This document shows, in pieces, positions 9,697 through 64,000 of a stretch of 64,000 nt of DNA (position 1 is its first letter; each line of letters starts with the position of its first letter). Source of the DNA: Bacteroidota bacterium (GTDB lineage Bacteria; Bacteroidota; Bacteroidia; JAHEXY01); the NCBI GenBank assembly GCA_023251875.1, contig JAHEXY010000004.1, positions 229,294-293,293 on the forward strand, in the 5' to 3' direction. The translations under genes were made by a program, and so were the position numbers. The notes under the pieces were generated by a model that searched no databases, was not told the DNA's origin, and was given only the letters and a program-made list of their open reading frames with translations.

Positions 9697-11169
9697 TCAC
9701 ATTAACTCAACAACTAATTTTTCTAATAATACAACATTCTCTACATGATGCGTATGGGGAAACATATCAACAGGTTGTACTTTTTTAATAGCATAATGCT
9801 CTTTCATAAAAGCCAAATCTCTTGCTTGAGAGGCAGGATTACAACTTACGTATACAATACGATCAGGTTTTATCTCCAGTATTTTATTTACTACATCAAG
9901 ATGCATACCGGCTCTGGGAGGATCTGTAATAATGATATCAGGAGTACCGTGTTCAGCAATAAAATCATTGCTGAGCACATCTTTCATGTCTCCTGCAAAA
10001 AAACTAGTGTTTGTAATTTTATTAATTATCGAATTTTCTTTGGCATCTTCAATAGCTTCAGGCACAAACTCAATACCTATTACTTTTTTAGCTTGAGAAG
10101 CAATAAAATTGGCAATGGTTCCGGTTCCGGTATAAAGATCGTATACAATTTCCTTTCCGGTTAAACCTGCATAATCTCTCGTTATTTTATAAAGCTCATA
10201 AGCCTGAGTGGTATTGGTTTGAAAAAATGATTTAGGCCCAATCTTAAATTGAATGCCCTCCATTTCTTCCATTAAAAAAGCATTGCCTTTAAAGCAAATA
10301 ATTTCTAAATCATTAATGGTATCATTTCTTTTAGGATTGATAACATAGTTTAAAGATGTAATTTGCGGAAATTTCACATTCAAAAAACTTAATATATTCT
10401 CTGCAATTTGCTTTACCTCTAGGCTGTTTTCAGCCCTCTCCTTCGGAGAGGGGAAGGGGGAGAGGTTTACAATCACCATCCAGTCTCCTTTTGCATTGTT
10501 TCTGATAATTAGATTTCGCAAAAGTCCATTTTGGTCTCTTAAATCAAAAAATGAAATCTTATTTTCAAGGGCATATTTCTTCACACTTTCGCGGATTTTA
10601 TTGGATAAATCAGGTTGTAAAAAACATTCATGAATATCCAATACTTTATCAAACCTACCCGGAACATGAAAACCCAATCCTTCATGAATTACCTCACCCC
10701 AACCCTCTCCAAAGGAGAGGGAGTTAGCCAACTCCTCATTAGTAAGCCATTTTTTATGAGAAAAAGTATATTCTAGTTTATTTCTATAATACCTTTCATT
10801 CCTTGATGGAAGAATAGGATTAATCTCAGTAACATCTAATTTACCCAATCGTATTAAAGCATCATGAACTTGTTTTTGTTTGTAAAACAATTGATGCTCA
10901 TATTGCATAAATTGCCATTTGCAACCACCACACACTCCAAAATGTTCACAAAAAGGCTCCGAACGTTTGTTTGAATAATGATGCCAATGAATGGCATTTC
11001 CTTCAGCATAGGAGTTTTTCTTGCGTGTAAGTTGAATATCCACTACATCACCTGGAACTGCATTTTTTAAAAACACAACCAATTTATCAACTTTAGCAAT
11101 TGATTTACCCTCTGAACCCGCATCGGTAATGGGAATATTATATAGTATAGGAAGTGGCTTCTTGCTCAT
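9697..11169 (-). CDS. rlmD: 23S rRNA (uracil-C5)-methyltransferase RlmD/RumA family, with two in-frame palindromic-repeat inserts
   Basis: This 490-aa SAM-dependent RNA methyltransferase has an N-terminal TRAM domain (about 10-65) and the iron-sulfur cysteines of CEHFGVCGGCKW. Its C-terminal methyltransferase domain carries VYDLYTGTGTIANF (SAM loop), TDPPRAG and the catalytic-cysteine segment VYVSCNPA. The family methylates U1939 (RlmD) or U747 and related sites of 23S rRNA; the exact site is not decided by sequence. Two short peptides, SLSFGEGWGEV and NLSPFPSPKERAE, are encoded by GC-rich palindromic elements at 10690-10726 and 10430-10467 and are not family features. They keep the frame, and all catalytic motifs are intact. 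Confidence 0.88.
   Translation of the reverse strand: MSKKPLPILYNIPITDAGSEGKSIAKVDKLVVFLKNAVPGDVVDIQLTRKKNSYAEGNAIHWHHYSNKRSEPFCEHFGVCGGCKWQFMQYEHQLFYKQKQVHDALIRLGKLDVTEINPILPSRNERYYRNKLEYTFSHKKWLTNEELANSLSFGEGWGEVIHEGLGFHVPGRFDKVLDIHECFLQPDLSNKIRESVKKYALENKISFFDLRDQNGLLRNLIIRNNAKGDWMVIVNLSPFPSPKERAENSLEVKQIAENILSFLNVKFPQITSLNYVINPKRNDTINDLEIICFKGNAFLMEEMEGIQFKIGPKSFFQTNTTQAYELYKITRDYAGLTGKEIVYDLYTGTGTIANFIASQAKKVIGIEFVPEAIEDAKENSIINKITNTSFFAGDMKDVLSNDFIAEHGTPDIIITDPPRAGMHLDVVNKILEIKPDRIVYVSCNPASQARDLAFMKEHYAIKKVQPVDMFPHTHHVENVVLLEKLVVELM
10430..10467. repeat. GC-rich palindromic element, copy 1 (inside rlmD)
   Basis: The palindrome CCCTCTCCTTCGGAGAGGGG is followed by AAGGGGGAGAGG. It lies in frame in rlmD and encodes LSPFPSPKERAE on the minus strand. 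It has the layout shared by all copies: a CCCTCTCC/GGAGAGGG hairpin plus a CCTCnCCC flank on one side. Confidence 0.85.
10690..10726. repeat. GC-rich palindromic element, copy 2 (inside rlmD)
   Basis: CCTCACCCCAACCCTCTCC runs into AAAGGAGAGGG. It is in frame in rlmD and encodes SLSFGEGWGEV on the minus strand, the same peptide as copy 7 inside the DUF2851 gene. Confidence 0.88.
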
Positions 11170-11184: not shown

Positions 11185-11370
11185 CTCATCTTTGACTGAA
11201 GAATAATATTTACGCAGCATTTACTTAGATAATAGTTCGATAATTTTTTCAACACTTTATCCTGTCCATAAGAGTGCTCAATTAATTTTTTTATTGTTTC
11301 AACATTTTCAACATCTATAATAGAGATTATATAAGTTAAGCAACATATCAATAAATATTCATTTTCTTAT

Positions 11371-11405
11371 GCCCTCACCCTACCCCTCTCCCAAAGGAGA
11401 GGGTA
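11371..11405. repeat. GC-rich palindromic element, copy 3 (intergenic)
   Basis: CCTCACCCTACCCCTCTCCC runs into AAAGGAGAGGG. It lies in the 11170-11498 gap between the TlpA-like gene and rlmD, which otherwise shows only the rlmD -7 box. A 61-codon open frame there has no recognisable features. Confidence 0.85.
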
Positions 11406-11498
11406 AGTTTGGAATTGTATATAATACCTTAACTTATATAAACCTTAATGGTATAGGGTTCTAATCCAAAAGAAGAAACTGAAAGCCTAGTACCTTGT

Positions 11499-28766: not shown

Positions 28767-28798
28767 TCCCGATAGCAAGGCGTATCGGGAATTTTTTT
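28767..28798 (+). terminator. Terminator-shaped hairpin in a divergent gap
   Basis: TCCCGATA (28767-28774) pairs with TATCGGGA (28783-28790), followed by AT7. It faces the plus strand, where no gene lies upstream; the DUF4476 gene diverges. It could end a short leader or small RNA, or be a copy of a TCCCGAT/ATCGGGA palindrome like those at 41301-41316 and 44516-44532. Confidence 0.5.
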
Positions 28799-32851: not shown

Positions 32852-32945
32852 CCATACATAAACAGTTCACAAGGACTAATGAACATTAAATGGCTTATAC
32901 CATATGACTTTTAATAAACAAATAATGTACATATGAAATAAATAT

Positions 32946-32954
32946 TATATTTGC
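32946..32954 (+). promoter_or_regulatory. -7 box upstream of the second skp gene
   Basis: TAtaTTTGC matches TAnnTTTG exactly, 28 bp before the ATG at 32983. No -33 box was identified. It suggests the second copy can be transcribed separately. Confidence 0.45.
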
Positions 32955-32982
32955 ATTCATTAACTCTAAAACTTATTTATAC

Positions 32983-37978: not shown

Positions 37979-38014
37979 GCCCTCACCCTGCCCCTCTCCC
38001 AAGGGAGAGGGAGG
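37979..38014. repeat. GC-rich palindromic element, copy 4 (intergenic)
   Basis: CCCTCACCCTGCCCCTCTCC runs into CAAGGGAGAGGG between apt and the ComEA-like gene. Confidence 0.85.
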
Positions 38015-40722: not shown

Positions 40723-42103
40723 AACGAATTATCGAATTAAATAAACTGCAATTTAAGCATTTTTTATGAGAACAGTATTCATTTTTGAGCTGTAATAAGG
40801 CCTGTGAGCTATGGGCACTATCTATTTTAATTCCTAGATTTTTCCAATTTTTAATGATCGCATTATTCTCGGGTTTTAGTTGCTCCAATAAAGCCAATGC
40901 TTTGTCTTTGTATTCTTCTTTGTTTTTTTGTTGGCCGTATGTAAATAAAAAAGGAACGATGGTATTGATTATAATTAATTCTGAAGAAGCTAGCCCTAGT
41001 GATTTTTTGCTGTATTTTACCGGTTTATTAAACACATAATGCGTATTCCAATAATCAGAAACGGAAACAGTAAATAATTTGAGTAAATCATTTACATTTT
41101 TAGCTTCAATAATTTCAGAAAACAGATTACTACTCTTATAAAGTAGCTGTGCAAACTGCGCTATTCTTATGGTCGGAAAATTTGATGGTCGCAAGCGCAA
41201 AAATTTCCATTGAGAGTTGTCAATTGGATTTAGATTAAATTTTGCTTTTAGATTTTCGTATTCTCTTTGAAGAAGTTTTAAATAGCCCTCACTCTGTCCC
41301 TCCCGAAAAAACGGGACAGGTTCTCCCAAGGGAGAGGGTACCACATAGCTAAGTTCCTTGCTTAAAAATTCGGCTTGGCCGAAAAGCAAAGCTTCAATTT
41401 GAGTTAAATCATTTTTATGTTTTAAGATAATAGATAATGGCAATGATTTTGCCAACATTTCAAATGCATCAGCATTAATATTAAAACCGAAATTGCGTGC
41501 TAAACTTATGTATAAAGTCTCTTCCCAATTGTTATTGGTGTACCTAAGTAATTCGGAAATATAGGTTGATTTGCTTTCAAGTCTCTCCAACAACAATCGG
41601 ACCTCTCCCCAACCCTCTCCGAAGGAGAGGGAGCTTGGCTCCTGCAAGAAATTTTCTTTTTGCAAATTTGCATTTTTAGCTGCTAAATATGGGGCCAGTA
41701 ATTTTTCGCAAGGAATAAATTGATAGGGCTTTTGTATGGATTGATATTGTTCAATTAATTTTTGATCAATTAATTTTTTAAGTTCTATGGCAGGTATTTC
41801 TTGGCCAATATGATTTTTCACTTCTACATCATGCTCGTATGAGACATGAAGAATAGTATTGTTATAAGCAGCATCTAGTTGATGTTTGTGGTCATTCCAG
41901 TTTGAAGATTTCACATGAATTTCAACATTTCCGGCCCATAGAGTATTGCCAATTTTTATTCTGGCATTAAAAAAATCAGGGCCTGCATTGGTGTTGTGTT
42001 CTCCGGCTTTAAGGATTTCAACTTCTTCTCCATCTATTGTTTTGAGACCATTTTTACTAAAAAGTTTGAATTTCCAGATGTAGTGGAGAAAGGATTCGGT
42101 CAT
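40721..42103 (-). CDS. DUF2851 family protein with two in-frame repeat inserts
   Basis: This 460-aa protein begins MTESFLHYIWKFKLFSKNGL, with the family's GEEVEILKAGEHNTNAGPDF, and WAGNVEIHVKSSNW. DUF2851 is a Bacteroidota family of unknown function; a nuclease-like fold has been suggested by others as I recall, and I do not assert it. Two GC-rich palindromic elements interrupt it in frame: SSLSFGEGWGEVR (41598-41636) and PSPLGEPVPFFREGQSEG (41286-41340). The second also carries a nested CTGTCCC...GGGACAG palindrome. A CxxxxxxxxCxxC cluster closes the protein (YCSHKKCLNCSL), possibly a metal site. Confidence 0.85.
   Translation of the reverse strand: MTESFLHYIWKFKLFSKNGLKTIDGEEVEILKAGEHNTNAGPDFFNARIKIGNTLWAGNVEIHVKSSNWNDHKHQLDAAYNNTILHVSYEHDVEVKNHIGQEIPAIELKKLIDQKLIEQYQSIQKPYQFIPCEKLLAPYLAAKNANLQKENFLQEPSSLSFGEGWGEVRLLLERLESKSTYISELLRYTNNNWEETLYISLARNFGFNINADAFEMLAKSLPLSIILKHKNDLTQIEALLFGQAEFLSKELSYVVPSPLGEPVPFFREGQSEGYLKLLQREYENLKAKFNLNPIDNSQWKFLRLRPSNFPTIRIAQFAQLLYKSSNLFSEIIEAKNVNDLLKLFTVSVSDYWNTHYVFNKPVKYSKKSLGLASSELIIINTIVPFLFTYGQQKNKEEYKDKALALLEQLKPENNAIIKNWKNLGIKIDSAHSSQALLQLKNEYCSHKKCLNCSLFNSIIR
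41286..41340. repeat. GC-rich palindromic element, copy 6, with nested palindrome (inside DUF2851 gene)
   Basis: The flank CCCTCACTCTGTCCC and the hairpin TCTCCCAAGGGAGAGGG are separated by TCCCGAAAAAACGGGA (41301-41316), also readable as CTGTCCC/GGGACAG arms. It looks like one small palindrome inserted into another. The frame is kept. Confidence 0.78.
41598..41636. repeat. GC-rich palindromic element, copy 7 (inside DUF2851 gene)
   Basis: CCTCTCCCCAACCCTCTCC runs into GAAGGAGAGGGAG, encoding SSLSFGEGWGEVR, almost the same peptide as copy 2 in rlmD. Confidence 0.88.
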
Positions 42104-44385: not shown

Positions 44386-44498
44386 AAACCCAAAAATGTT
44401 TTATGATTCGATTAGCATCATTTATGCAAACATTACATATTTTTATTTAATTTGCGTGCTTAAAATAATTAGGGCTTTAAATATTGGATTATTTATAT

Positions 44499-44538
44499 CC
44501 TCTCCCTTAATCCCTTCCCGATTTAATCGGGAGGAGAG
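44499..44538. repeat. GC-rich palindromic element, copy 8, with nested TCCCGAT palindrome
   Basis: CCTCTCCCTTAATCCCT is followed by TCCCGATTTAATCGGGA (44516-44532) and GGAGAG. The inner palindrome sits where other copies have only a short loop. It lies 60 bp upstream of sucB. Confidence 0.72.
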
Positions 44539-44597
44539 ATAAATGACAATTTTTAGAAAGCCCATAAGCCTAATTAGAATTAATAAATTTTAATACC

Positions 44598-48115: not shown

Positions 48116-48644
48116 CGCCAACTGTAACACAATTTTTAACTCCGGTTAATCCATACTTTCTGCCCTCTTTTATTATATAATTTACCTTTATTCTTCCATC
48201 TGATTTATAAGCTTTTTGTTGCCCAAATTCGTGGCCATTGTGATAATAAAAATCTCTGTATAATTGTCCACTTTCGTACCATTCTTTTACATTACCTTCA
48301 TATACATCATTGCTAAAATGATAAATAAATTTTACCCGATTATTTTCCCACCAAGCTTTTTCTAAACCTTGTTTTTTTCCATTATAAAATGAAATTATTT
48401 TTGCGGTATCTCCATTGGCATATAAACTATATTGCCAACCAGAAAACACCTTTTTGTTATATAAAAGCATTCCATTTTTTATAGTAAAAGAGGGACTATT
48501 TTGTAAAATAAAAACGCTAGGAATGTTCACCTCCTCATTTGAACATGAAAATTGCAATGAAATAAAAAGCCATAACACAAGAGCAATTCTAAAAATTGTT
48601 TTTTTTATCTCCTCACCCTTTCTCCCTCTCAAAGAAAGGGACAC
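48099..48644 (-). CDS. YwqK/MORN-repeat lipoprotein with uncertain start
   Basis: The frame covers a lipoprotein signal (KKTIFRIALVLW...FSC, lipobox FSC) and MORN/YwqK-type repeats (YANGDTAKIISFYNGKKQG, WYESGQLYRDFYYHNG). The signal would begin exactly at an ATA codon (48606-48608) where ATG is expected. The nearest usable starts are GTG at 48644 or TTG at 48632, both inside palindromic element copy 9, which would add 28-36 odd residues. A still longer ATG frame from 48713 overlaps the YHYH gene and is unlikely. MORN-type repeats may bind surfaces or proteins. Its 3' end overlaps the SCO start. Confidence 0.7.
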   Translation of the reverse strand: MSLSLRGRKGEEIKKTIFRIALVLWLFISLQFSCSNEEVNIPSVFILQNSPSFTIKNGMLLYNKKVFSGWQYSLYANGDTAKIISFYNGKKQGLEKAWWENNRVKFIYHFSNDVYEGNVKEWYESGQLYRDFYYHNGHEFGQQKAYKSDGRIKVNYIIKEGRKYGLTGVKNCVTVGDADSI

Positions 48645-48650
48645 AAATTG
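48608..48650. repeat. GC-rich palindromic element, copy 9 (degenerate)
   Basis: TCCTCACCCTTTCTCCCTCTC runs into AAAGAAAGGGACA, a diverged copy. It lies at the 5' end of the YwqK-like gene and reads VSLSLRGRKGEE. Confidence 0.6.
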
Positions 48651-48669
48651 ATAATTTTCAGAATTGCTC

Positions 48670-49458
48670 TTACTGAGTAACCGTACCGGCAGTACCATAA
48701 AATCCATCTCCATTTATATATGGGTCTTCAGCAGTAATATGATAATGATAAATTCCATTAGGATAATCTGCAGTTACAGCAAAATGTCCATGGTAACTAT
48801 CCAAATCAGCATTGGTAATGGTATTGCCATTTTCAACAGGACCATATACCGGAAATCCATCTAATAAAAACCCAATTAAAGCATCACTACCAATTGTTTG
48901 AGTTAGATAAACAGGTTCTATATGATAATGATAGGATCCTTGTTGTTGCGGATGCCCATTGTATTGATCAAATGTATTCATTTCTTGCGTGAGATCATCA
49001 CCGGGGGCAGCATATTGATTATAAAGGGCTACTCCATTTACAGCCACTCCAAATGCACCATAAGGTGTTGCTTCATGATTAGCATCTTCAGCCGGATTTA
49101 AGGGAATACGAAATGTATAATCTTGTTCAGCAATTTTATTGGGATTTTGGTTGTAGCTTGAATTTGTTCCATTGTATGCTTCGTACATAGTAGATTGCCA
49201 TTGAGTGCCCTGATAATAGGGGCTTTTATGATCCGGCAATCCTTTAACCTTTATTACTACTTCATTACCATCTATTGTAATACTTGTGGCCCCATATATT
49301 TTTTTATATACATCAGGTACAGTACTTGTGTCAGTACTTGTTGTATCTGAATTATTATTGTTATTATTATTTGAATCTTCTTTCTTCTTACAACTTTGCA
49401 ATGAATAAAAAGAAACTACAAATACGATTAATAATAAAAAAATATTTTTTTCTCTCAT
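48670..49458 (-). CDS. YHYH-domain lipoprotein
   Basis: This 262-aa lipoprotein has lipobox LQSC, an Asn/Thr/Ser-rich linker, and the YHYH domain: GSYHYHIEPV, GFLLDGFPVYGP and NGIYHYHITAEDPY. The paired Y-H-Y-H motifs and clustered His and Asp suggest metal binding. The family is of unknown function but often lies near SCO genes, hinting at copper handling. Its C-terminus shares 44 bp with a frame of the next gene that is not used. Confidence 0.85.
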   Translation of the reverse strand: MREKNIFLLLIVFVVSFYSLQSCKKKEDSNNNNNNNSDTTSTDTSTVPDVYKKIYGATSITIDGNEVVIKVKGLPDHKSPYYQGTQWQSTMYEAYNGTNSSYNQNPNKIAEQDYTFRIPLNPAEDANHEATPYGAFGVAVNGVALYNQYAAPGDDLTQEMNTFDQYNGHPQQQGSYHYHIEPVYLTQTIGSDALIGFLLDGFPVYGPVENGNTITNADLDSYHGHFAVTADYPNGIYHYHITAEDPYINGDGFYGTAGTVTQ

Positions 49459-57116: not shown

Positions 57117-57153
57117 TCCCTCTCCTTCGGAGAGGGATTTAGGGAGAGGTTTT
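57117..57153. repeat. GC-rich palindromic element, copy 10 (intergenic)
   Basis: CCCTCTCCTTCGGAGAGGG is followed by ATTTAGGGAGAGG, the same layout as copy 1. It fills the gap between the bacilliredoxin stop and the DUF2480 gene and touches the stop codon at 57152. Confidence 0.85.
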
Positions 57154-60062: not shown

Positions 60063-60284
60063 CTATCCTAACAATTGCTTTTTAATATCATCACCCTCTT
60101 TTTTTACAGGTTCTGCAGCATCATGTATTTCACGTTGAATATTATTAGCGGCATCTTTAAACTCCCTCATGCCCTTTCCTAACCCTCTTGCCAATTCCGG
60201 AATTTTGCTCGAGCCAAAAAACAAGAGGAATACAAAGAGTACCACTACTACTTCACCACCACCAAGATTTAAAAAGAGTAACAT
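60063..60284 (-). CDS. tatA: Twin-arginine translocase subunit TatA/E
   Basis: This 73-aa protein has one N-terminal membrane helix (GGGEVVVVLFVFLLFFG), the hinge FGSSKIPELARGLGKGMREF and an amphipathic helix, followed by a charged tail. These are TatA features. TatA oligomers form the translocation pore for folded proteins. Its start codon directly abuts a 5-unit heptamer array (60285-60319). secDF lies upstream on the same strand. Confidence 0.93.
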   Translation of the reverse strand: MLLFLNLGGGEVVVVLFVFLLFFGSSKIPELARGLGKGMREFKDAANNIQREIHDAAEPVKKEGDDIKKQLLG

Positions 60285-60320
60285 GTTAGTTGTTAGTTGT
60301 TAGTTGTTAGTTGTTAGTTG
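60285..60320. repeat. Heptamer array (GTTAGTT)5 flush with the tatA start codon
   Basis: Five identical GTTAGTT units (AACTAAC in the tatA direction) end exactly at the tatA ATG complement (60282-60284). A partial copy at 60344-60375 runs in the opposite sense (CGAACAACCAATAA), giving some hairpin potential. Confidence 0.9.
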
Positions 60321-63486: not shown

Positions 63487-63542
63487 AACTTTCTTATTCT
63501 AAAAGTATAATATTTGTTTGCGAATACTGTTTTCTTTTTTCT

Positions 63543-63657
63543 CGAACAACTAACAACGAGCAACTAATAACTAAGCAAATAGTCAAAATAGAAAGATTAT
63601 TTTTAACTTGCGTCCCGAAAAAATTTGGTTGTTAGTTATTCGTTGTTAGTTGTTGGG
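63543..63657. repeat. Heptamer clusters in both orientations between secDF and the permease gene
   Basis: CGAACAA, CTAACAA, CGAGCAA and CTAATAA units (63543-63577) face TTGGTTG, TTAGTTA, TTCGTTG and TTAGTTG units (63627-63657), so the two clusters could pair into a cruciform. The 63410-63837 gap holds these arrays, the secDF -7 box and AT-rich DNA, but no other gene that I can see. Confidence 0.7.
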
Positions 63658-63750
63658 GATGAATTTAAATAAAATTCCTTTCTAGACTTTTAATATATAA
63701 CATGATGGTAGCTCTAAACTAATTCTTAAAGGAAAAATACTACTAAGAAA

Positions 63751-63837
63751 TAACGAACAACTAATAACGAACAACTAACAACTAATAACTAATAACTAAT
63801 AACTAATAACTAACAACCAACAACCAACAACTAAACT
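63751..63837. repeat. Twelve-unit heptamer array before the permease start
   Basis: Twelve consecutive units of the form YAACNAA (TAACGAA, CAACTAA, TAACTAA x4, CAACCAA x2 among them) fill 63751-63834. ACT and the ATG at 63838 follow. Units differ at the first and fifth positions only. Confidence 0.92.
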
Positions 63838-64000
63838 ATGTCTCTATTCGCAAAAAAATCAATTGAGTCTTTAATAAAGGAATCGTCAGTAGAAGATAAA
63901 CACAGTTTAAAACGAAGCTTAAGTGCTGCAAATTTAGTTGCATTAGGTATTGGTGCTATTATTGGGGCGGGCTTATTTGTTCGCACAGCTTCTGCAGCGG
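63838..64000 (+). CDS. Amino acid permease, APC superfamily (3' partial)
   Basis: Only the first 54 codons are in the window; the gene continues past the right edge. MSLFAKKSIESLIKES is followed by KRSLSAANLVALGIGAIIGA, with the GIGAIIGAGLFV glycine-rich first helix of APC-family (cationic or general amino acid) transporters. A cytoplasmic-membrane amino acid transporter is likely; the substrate cannot be told. The start codon lies 3 bp after a 12-unit heptamer array. Confidence 0.85.
   Translation, partial: MSLFAKKSIESLIKESSVEDKHSLKRSLSAANLVALGIGAIIGAGLFVRTASAA

Follow-up and report, generated by a model that had tools for sequence, protein, structure and literature searches.

A putative family of 21- or 24-nucleotide mini-hairpins nested within TM/PIT and other palindromes of Bacteroidia

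The window analyzed here, a 64,000-nucleotide stretch of the genome of a Bacteroidota bacterium (contig JAHEXY010000004.1, positions 229,294 to 293,293), contains a DUF2851 gene that carries two copies of a dispersed palindrome, one of which holds a smaller palindrome within its own arm. We propose that the smaller palindrome represents a separate family of mini-hairpins that inserted into pre-existing TM/PIT hairpins and may move on its own, giving two stacked levels of insertion; from sequence comparison, we put the probability of this reading at roughly 60%. Aligned paralogues show exact net insertion of the inner unit, with empty and filled forms, at two positions and in several unrelated host hairpins and genomes. 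From these fixed insertions, we infer that the inner unit may be mobile independently of its host.

The outer element

The outer element is a dispersed repeat of approximately 33 nt with the consensus CCTCWCCC-n-CCCTCTCC-loop-GGAGAGGG, in which the right arm GGAGAGGG complements the left arm CCCTCTCC. Perfect CCCTCTCC-n-GGAGAGGG hairpins number 122 in the genome, compared to 0 for the reversed-pattern control. Across the class, 98 of 295 genomes contain the hairpin, and the genome studied here has the highest number. When reversed, the head CCTCTCCC is identical to CCCTCTCC, while CCTCACCC is one base off. Because the head mirrors the left arm of the hairpin in this way, the layout is that of the TM motif, and from its sequence, which matches the tabulated TM_ECO copies, we identify the outer element as a member of the G/C-rich intrastrand-triplex motif (TM/PIT) already known from other bacteria. 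The pyrimidine strand and the pyrimidine-purine hairpin could in principle fold as an intrastrand triplex.

In the portion of the E. coli TM literature consulted here, the E. coli sequence CCCTCTCCCTGTGGGAGAGGGCCGGGGTGAGGGC resembles CCCTCTCCCTTGGGAGAGGGGCAGGGTGAGGGC (the reverse complement of the copy at 37980) in both sequence and layout. According to the same portion, the TM motif is widespread in bacteria, and the E. coli copies (TM_ECO) are, like those of the genome studied here, numerous and dispersed, but invariably intergenic (Holder et al. 2015, PMC4666352). The elements described here are sometimes intragenic: in an unbiased sample of 1.02 Mb (contig C5, positions 1-400k of C11, and positions 1-260k of C22), 10 of 57 empty TM copies fall well within ORFs of at least 150 aa, versus the 76% expected from the share of bases. 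TM elements are therefore depleted in genes, yet not excluded from them. A further difference is the nested hairpin inserts present here, of which the consulted portion of Holder et al. makes no mention for the E. coli TM.

Within the window, empty TM copies lie at 10434-10465 (minus strand) and 10691-10723 (plus strand), both inside the ORF at 9697-11169 (minus strand), which is thus another ORF holding two TM elements. Intergenic empty copies are found at 37980-38012 (plus strand) and 57117-57149 (minus strand). Searching the whole window against Rfam at the gathering score gave no match.

Two inserts in a DUF2851 gene

The DUF2851 gene (PF11013; 40721-42103, minus strand) is intact and encodes a protein of 460 aa, which matches the PF11013 profile with 462 bits over residues 3-414 (profile positions 1-374 of 375). 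An alignment with seven homologues (41-52% identity) reveals two additional segments of approximately 19 aa in this protein, around EPSSLSFGEGWGEVR and VVPSPLGEPVPFFREGQSEG. Because these are absent from all seven homologues, we regard them as genuine in-frame inserts, in agreement with a preliminary description of this DNA. The DUF2851 protein is encoded in 56 of 60 genomes of the same class with a best identity of 55%, and as the nearest genomes compared belong to the same class only, the empty state of the gene is demonstrated at the protein level only.

Both inserts are copies of the TM/PIT element. The one we refer to as copy 7 (41601-41633, plus strand; SSLSFGEGWGEV on the minus strand) is empty and reads ...SSLSFGEGWGEVR... 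on the minus strand. The other, copy 6 (41286-41338, plus strand), is a compound of the TM/PIT hairpin and a nested small hairpin; it reads CCCTCACTCTGTCCC-TCCCGAAAAAACGGGA-CAGGTT-CTCCCAAGGGAGAGGG and adds approximately VVPSPLGEPVPFFREGQSEG on the minus strand. Its inner hairpin, TCCCG..CGGGA at 41301-41316, is followed by a CAGG tail. The inserted 21-nt unit, CCCGAAAAAACGGGACAGGTT at 41302-41322 (plus strand), splits the 5' arm between CCCT and CTCC, giving the layout CCCT-[CCCGAAAAAACGGGACAGGTT]-CTCCC, and the same net insertion of 21 nt recurs in 10 other copies.

The sequences that the preliminary description reported for copies 6, 7, and 8 and for the hairpin at 28767 were all found where it placed them. 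It was right that copy 6 contains a nested palindrome, but this palindrome sits inside the 5' arm, at CCCT^CTCC, and not between flank and hairpin. Likewise, the CTGTCCC/GGGACAG pairing exists in copy 6 but does not characterize the family, as it is made up of outer bases plus the insert tail and is absent from other compound copies.

Form and position of the inner unit

The inner unit has the form TCCCGA-loop-TCGGGACARG plus 2 nt. Among the loci of this genome that were examined, 17 compound copies carry the unit in an arm, with a net gain of exactly 21 or 24 nt; the 21-nt inserts have an AAAAA-type loop and the 24-nt inserts an AAxCAAGTT-type loop. In nearly all compound copies the CARG tail (CYTG on the reverse strand) adjoins TCCCGA..TCGGGA, so the unit of insertion is 21 or 24 nt including its tail and not the bare palindrome that was originally described. 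The orientation of the unit is fixed relative to the hairpin arm, with the tail towards the apex, and the outer TM arms can still pair with each other despite the insert between them (CCTT..AAGG or CCCT..AGGG). At loci L018 and L097, the unit is mirrored and lies in the loop, at CTCCT^TTGG. No target duplication around the unit is visible in the compound copies or in the empty and filled pairs. The 24-nt insertion is not perfectly clean, however, because one junction base is also changed from C to T.

No exact inner unit was free-standing among the 49 copies examined in context in this genome, and every 16-nt TCCCGAAAAATCGGGA among them sits either in a TM element or in one other palindromic repeat. 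An imperfect palindromic repeat, CCGATTATACATCCGTAATAGTC...CCTAAACGGCTGTTATATCGG, has TCCCGAAAAATCGGGA at its center in all three of its copies (L019 at 14902, L042 at 19960, and L065 at 16022); an empty form of this palindrome was sought at these three loci and not found. This genome also contains TGTCACGCTGAG..AAGCGTC palindromes that usually carry CGGAGTCG at their apex but in some cases a TCCCG hairpin instead. In addition, two TM elements of the same genome (L046 at 12839 and L056 at 3999) harbor a nested hairpin of another, unrelated kind (CTTCGACTCCGCTCAGGATAAAC and a variant).

The genome was analyzed through stretches that make up about a quarter of it, together with pattern searches. 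The 4.81 Mb genome contains 52 matches to the pattern TCCCG-n2-22-CGGGA, versus 11 to the reversed pattern, and the unbiased 1.02 Mb contains 15, versus 0-3 in first-order Markov simulations; these palindromes are therefore present beyond chance. TM elements accommodate 23 of the 49 TCCCG-type copies examined in context. In the unbiased sample, TM elements cover 0.20% of the sequence yet hold 5 of the 15 palindromes (6 by eye, counting the one at 44516). This amounts to an approximately 166-fold enrichment inside these GC-rich elements, with a binomial P of about 1e-10 that overstates independence, because some compound copies have probably been copied as whole units.

Empty and filled counterparts

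A repeat of approximately 150 nt holds a 24-nt insertion at three loci, L101, L110, and L057. Its terminal inverted repeats are approximately 19 nt long (AGAGTTTATATAAGTTAAG in L101), and an empty paralogue lies in the window at 11318-11443 (plus strand), with its TM element at 11372-11403. In a second repeat of approximately 90 nt, GGGCAGTTCTAAAAATTG...AATTTTTAGAACTGCCC, L103 is empty and L095 is filled, and the sole differences between the two are the 21 nt CCCGAAAAATCGGGACAAGTA and one substitution. For this last pair, L103 was reverse-complemented and compared with L095 by eye, as MAFFT had aligned the strands as given. Similarly, L021 is empty and L109 is filled by 21 nt, and at the loop position (CTCCT^TTGG) L042 is empty and L097 is filled by 24 nt. 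These exact pairs supply the empty versions for which the preliminary description had suggested looking.

When nearest relatives are compared, the copies most similar to L095 and L109 are empty (for L095, a score of 78 versus 57.5), while those most similar to L057, L101, and L110 are filled. L027 with L066 and L057 with L101 are mutual nearest relatives among the compounds. It follows that the unit has been inserted (or excised) and that ready-made compounds have also been copied; some compound copies have clearly spread within a larger repeat.

Copy 8 (44472-44563, plus strand) is a TM element within imperfect terminal repeats GGGCTTT...AAAGCCC. Its hairpin with TCCCGATTTAATCGGGA, at 44516-44532, includes the nested TCCCGAT/ATCGGGA noted previously but has no CARG tail; rather than a typical insert, it is by its structure a tail-less, aberrant variant. 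An empty relative of approximately 90 nt with a degenerate TM core lies at 48580-48670 (plus strand), between 18-nt inverted repeats (AGAGCAATTCTAAAAATT) with one mismatch. MITEs combine terminal inverted repeats with a target-site duplication; terminal inverted repeats bound the larger host repeats at both 11318-11443 and 48580-48670, where a duplication was not established. The TCCCGATAGCAAGGCGTATCGGGA hairpin at 28767-28790 (no strand assigned) had been proposed as a free copy, a view we abandon because this hairpin has no CARG tail and has flanks like those of the GTAAGTCGAACTAA-TCCCG repeat family (L025, L026, L062, and L063).

TM cores within repeats of approximately 90 nt are present at 48580-48670 in the window and at L017, L019, L055, L056, L058, L095, and L103. 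The inner terminal inverted repeat TTCTAAAAATT is conserved among these, while the outermost arms vary from copy to copy yet match each other, as if the repeats had been inserted into different pre-existing palindromes. The window also contains one copy (32874-32960) of a repeated leader, CACTGATGAACATTGAATGGCG ... TGACTTTTAAAAAACAAATAATGTACATATG, which recurs at L028 (7878), L043 (11692), and L102 (979) and seems to precede gene starts; in the window copy the TCCCGATTCATCGGGA hairpin is missing, whereas the other copies have it fully or nearly so. Heptamer-like tandem repeats (TTAGTTG / AACTAAT) are found at 60272-60315 and 63528-63841.

The inner unit in other Bacteroidia

Across the class, 12 of 295 genomes contain a compound pattern. 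In genomes G145 and G175 the host hairpin, CTCCCCCTTAGCAGGGGGAG, differs from TM, and empty copies lie a few hundred bases away. Outside the genome studied here, the loci L128, L126, and L115 yield the filled form CTCCC[TCCCGAATCAAGTTCGGGACAGGAT]CTTAGCAGGGGGAG versus the empty form CTCCCCCTTAGCAGGGGGAG, as well as the filled form CATCTCC[TCCCGATGTAAAATCGGGACAAGCT]CTTAGCAGGGGAG, whose empty form is also present. At L115 the inserted unit itself holds TCCCGATAGCTATCGGGA, forming a triple nest, CTCCC[TCCCGATTA[TCCCGATAGCTATCGGGA]CGGGACAAGCT]CTTAGCAGGGGGAG, and a further triple nest occurs at L161 in genome G013. L052 and L128 share the sequence TCCCGAATCAAGTTCGGGACAGG without any difference. Together with the enrichment, the empty and filled pairs, and the two positions, these hairpins of other genomes bear out the suggestion that a smaller palindromic family inserts into the first.

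Hairpins of similar type also stand within partial tRNA copies. In genome G013 (L144, 1501 and 1903), a TTGTCCCGATGTATCGGGA hairpin takes the place of the anticodon loop in a partial tRNA-Ala copy, and in genome G126 (L152), TCCCG hairpins take the place of the anticodon loop together with a portion of the 5' half in tandem partial tRNA-Met copies. The latter form a tandem array of ~93 nt, with TCCCG..CGGGA hairpins, near an intact tRNA-Met. Rfam searches on the tRNA-like copies returned nothing useful besides intact tRNAs.

How the unit may move

We propose that the TM/PIT element inserted in frame twice into the DUF2851 gene, and that the inner unit then added a net 21 or 24 nt to an existing hairpin, in fixed orientation and with no visible target duplication. 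The unit would move by itself into hairpins exposed as single strands. The simplest mover would be a transposase of the single-strand kind (HUH/Y1-type) that acts in trans. Transposases of this type leave no target duplication and recognize hairpins in single strands, and it is because of this chemistry that we consider them the simplest candidate. Once formed, a compound could also be copied within a larger repeat. The genome contains seven Y1_Tnp genes, and neither the inner nor the outer element was found within 500 bp of any of them; because no Y1_Tnp gene is flanked by the unit, we put forward the HUH/Y1 step as a proposal only. Two Y1_Tnp genes (L007 1194-2090 and L003 1917-2172) lie amid arrays of short hairpins (CAACCCTTTCAGGGTTG, GCGTGCCTAAAGGCACGC, and similar) in a REPtron-like arrangement. 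A more far-reaching hypothesis, which we hold tentatively and would not favor over its negation, is that a 21-24-nt hairpin carrying no gene transposes precisely and without target duplication into single-stranded hairpins, as a Bacteroidia-wide parasite of palindromes. Its targets would be TM/PIT elements, other REP-like palindromes, its own copies, and perhaps the anticodon arms of tRNAs.

Several compound copies have another compound copy as their nearest relative, as would be expected if compounds spread ready-made; this argues against independent movement, as does the absence of a free-standing exact unit among the 49 copies examined. The compounds could then be one or two old TM subfamilies, each founded by a single insertion and later copied whole, with the empty copies explained as precise deletions of the hairpin. 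Orientation and position are indeed fixed in most copies, L101, L110, and L057 have insert and flanks in common, the pairs L027/L066 and L057/L101 are mutually nearest, and slippage could plausibly delete a hairpin with precision. We nevertheless consider this history unlikely, as it must contend with arm and loop positions that each have their own empty counterpart, with different inner types in different outer types, with inner units in non-TM hairpins of other genera where empty forms exist too, and with the closeness of L095 to an empty copy.

That the inner hairpin arises locally, through template switching or quasi-palindrome repair while the outer hairpin replicates, appears improbable to us. 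Every insert lies inside a hairpin, where polymerases switch templates, and the outermost arms of copies with terminal inverted repeats covary on both sides, suggesting that palindromes may be homogenized; but the insert sequence is conserved across unrelated loci and genomes, as with TCCCGAATCAAGTTCGGGACAGG, and is not derived from its neighborhood. Least credible of all is the idea that, in a GC-rich context, these palindromes arose by chance or simply act as terminators of transcription. Although T-runs follow some other TCCCG hairpins (28767 and L107), none directly follows a compound copy, one compound lies within a coding gene, and neither the fixed unit with its tail nor the enrichment within TM elements fits such an origin. 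The palindromes occur neither at chance level (15 versus 0-3 in 1.02 Mb) nor only as terminators, and for the compound copies the pattern counts refute both.

Relation to known systems and significance

The small dispersed repeats (SDR) of cyanobacteria are very short, mobile-looking hairpins that occur within other repeats and within structured RNAs; they belong to another phylum, and we liken them to the present unit by description only. REPs have been described within palindromes (GTAG-15 of A. variabilis, GTAG-23 of T. roseum, and CGTC-1 of H. neapolitanus), as have in-frame REP insertions in genes (Di Nocera et al. 2013, PMC3733652). Like these, the inner unit is a small tagged hairpin inside another palindrome, but its tag would be CYTG (reverse strand) instead of GTAG or CGTC. 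Furthermore, exact empty and filled pairs and several host palindromes are available here, whereas no empty target palindromes were found in two of the three cases in PMC3733652. The inner unit shares with REP/RAYT systems a short tag adjoining the hairpin and many dispersed copies, but has no GTAG/CGTC tag and does not occur within 500 bp of the seven Y1_Tnp genes. Rickettsia palindromic elements (RPE), in the description cited in PMC3733652, are palindromic repeats lying in frame in protein genes. They differ from the inserts reported here in sequence and phylum, the likeness is one of description only, and relative to that brief description the nesting of a second family is new here. Palindromic repeats are also hot spots for IS insertion (Tobes and Pareja 2006, PMC1525189), but in that case a full IS with a transposase gene enters REP palindromes, whereas the units considered here are gene-less and 21-24 nt long.

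Literature searches of non-exhaustive coverage on the inner sequence and on nested repeats yielded nothing on the inner unit. The outer TM element, and a REP inside another palindrome in three other species, are already known; within the reach of those searches, the unit itself, its exact 21- and 24-nt insertions for which empty counterparts exist, and its occurrence in a number of unrelated hairpins across Bacteroidia are new.

How tiny palindromic repeats (REP, PIT/TM, and SDR) move is largely an open question. Clean empty and filled pairs and a fixed 21- or 24-nt unit constitute a defined substrate and product, and the reaction is therefore testable. In the DUF2851 protein, the outcome is a pair of in-frame peptide inserts of approximately 19 aa, with 7 aa in the compound copy coming from the nested unit. 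If hairpins are indeed targets for such units, this would help to explain the mosaics seen among bacterial palindromic repeats, as well as the origin of in-frame peptide inserts in conserved proteins.
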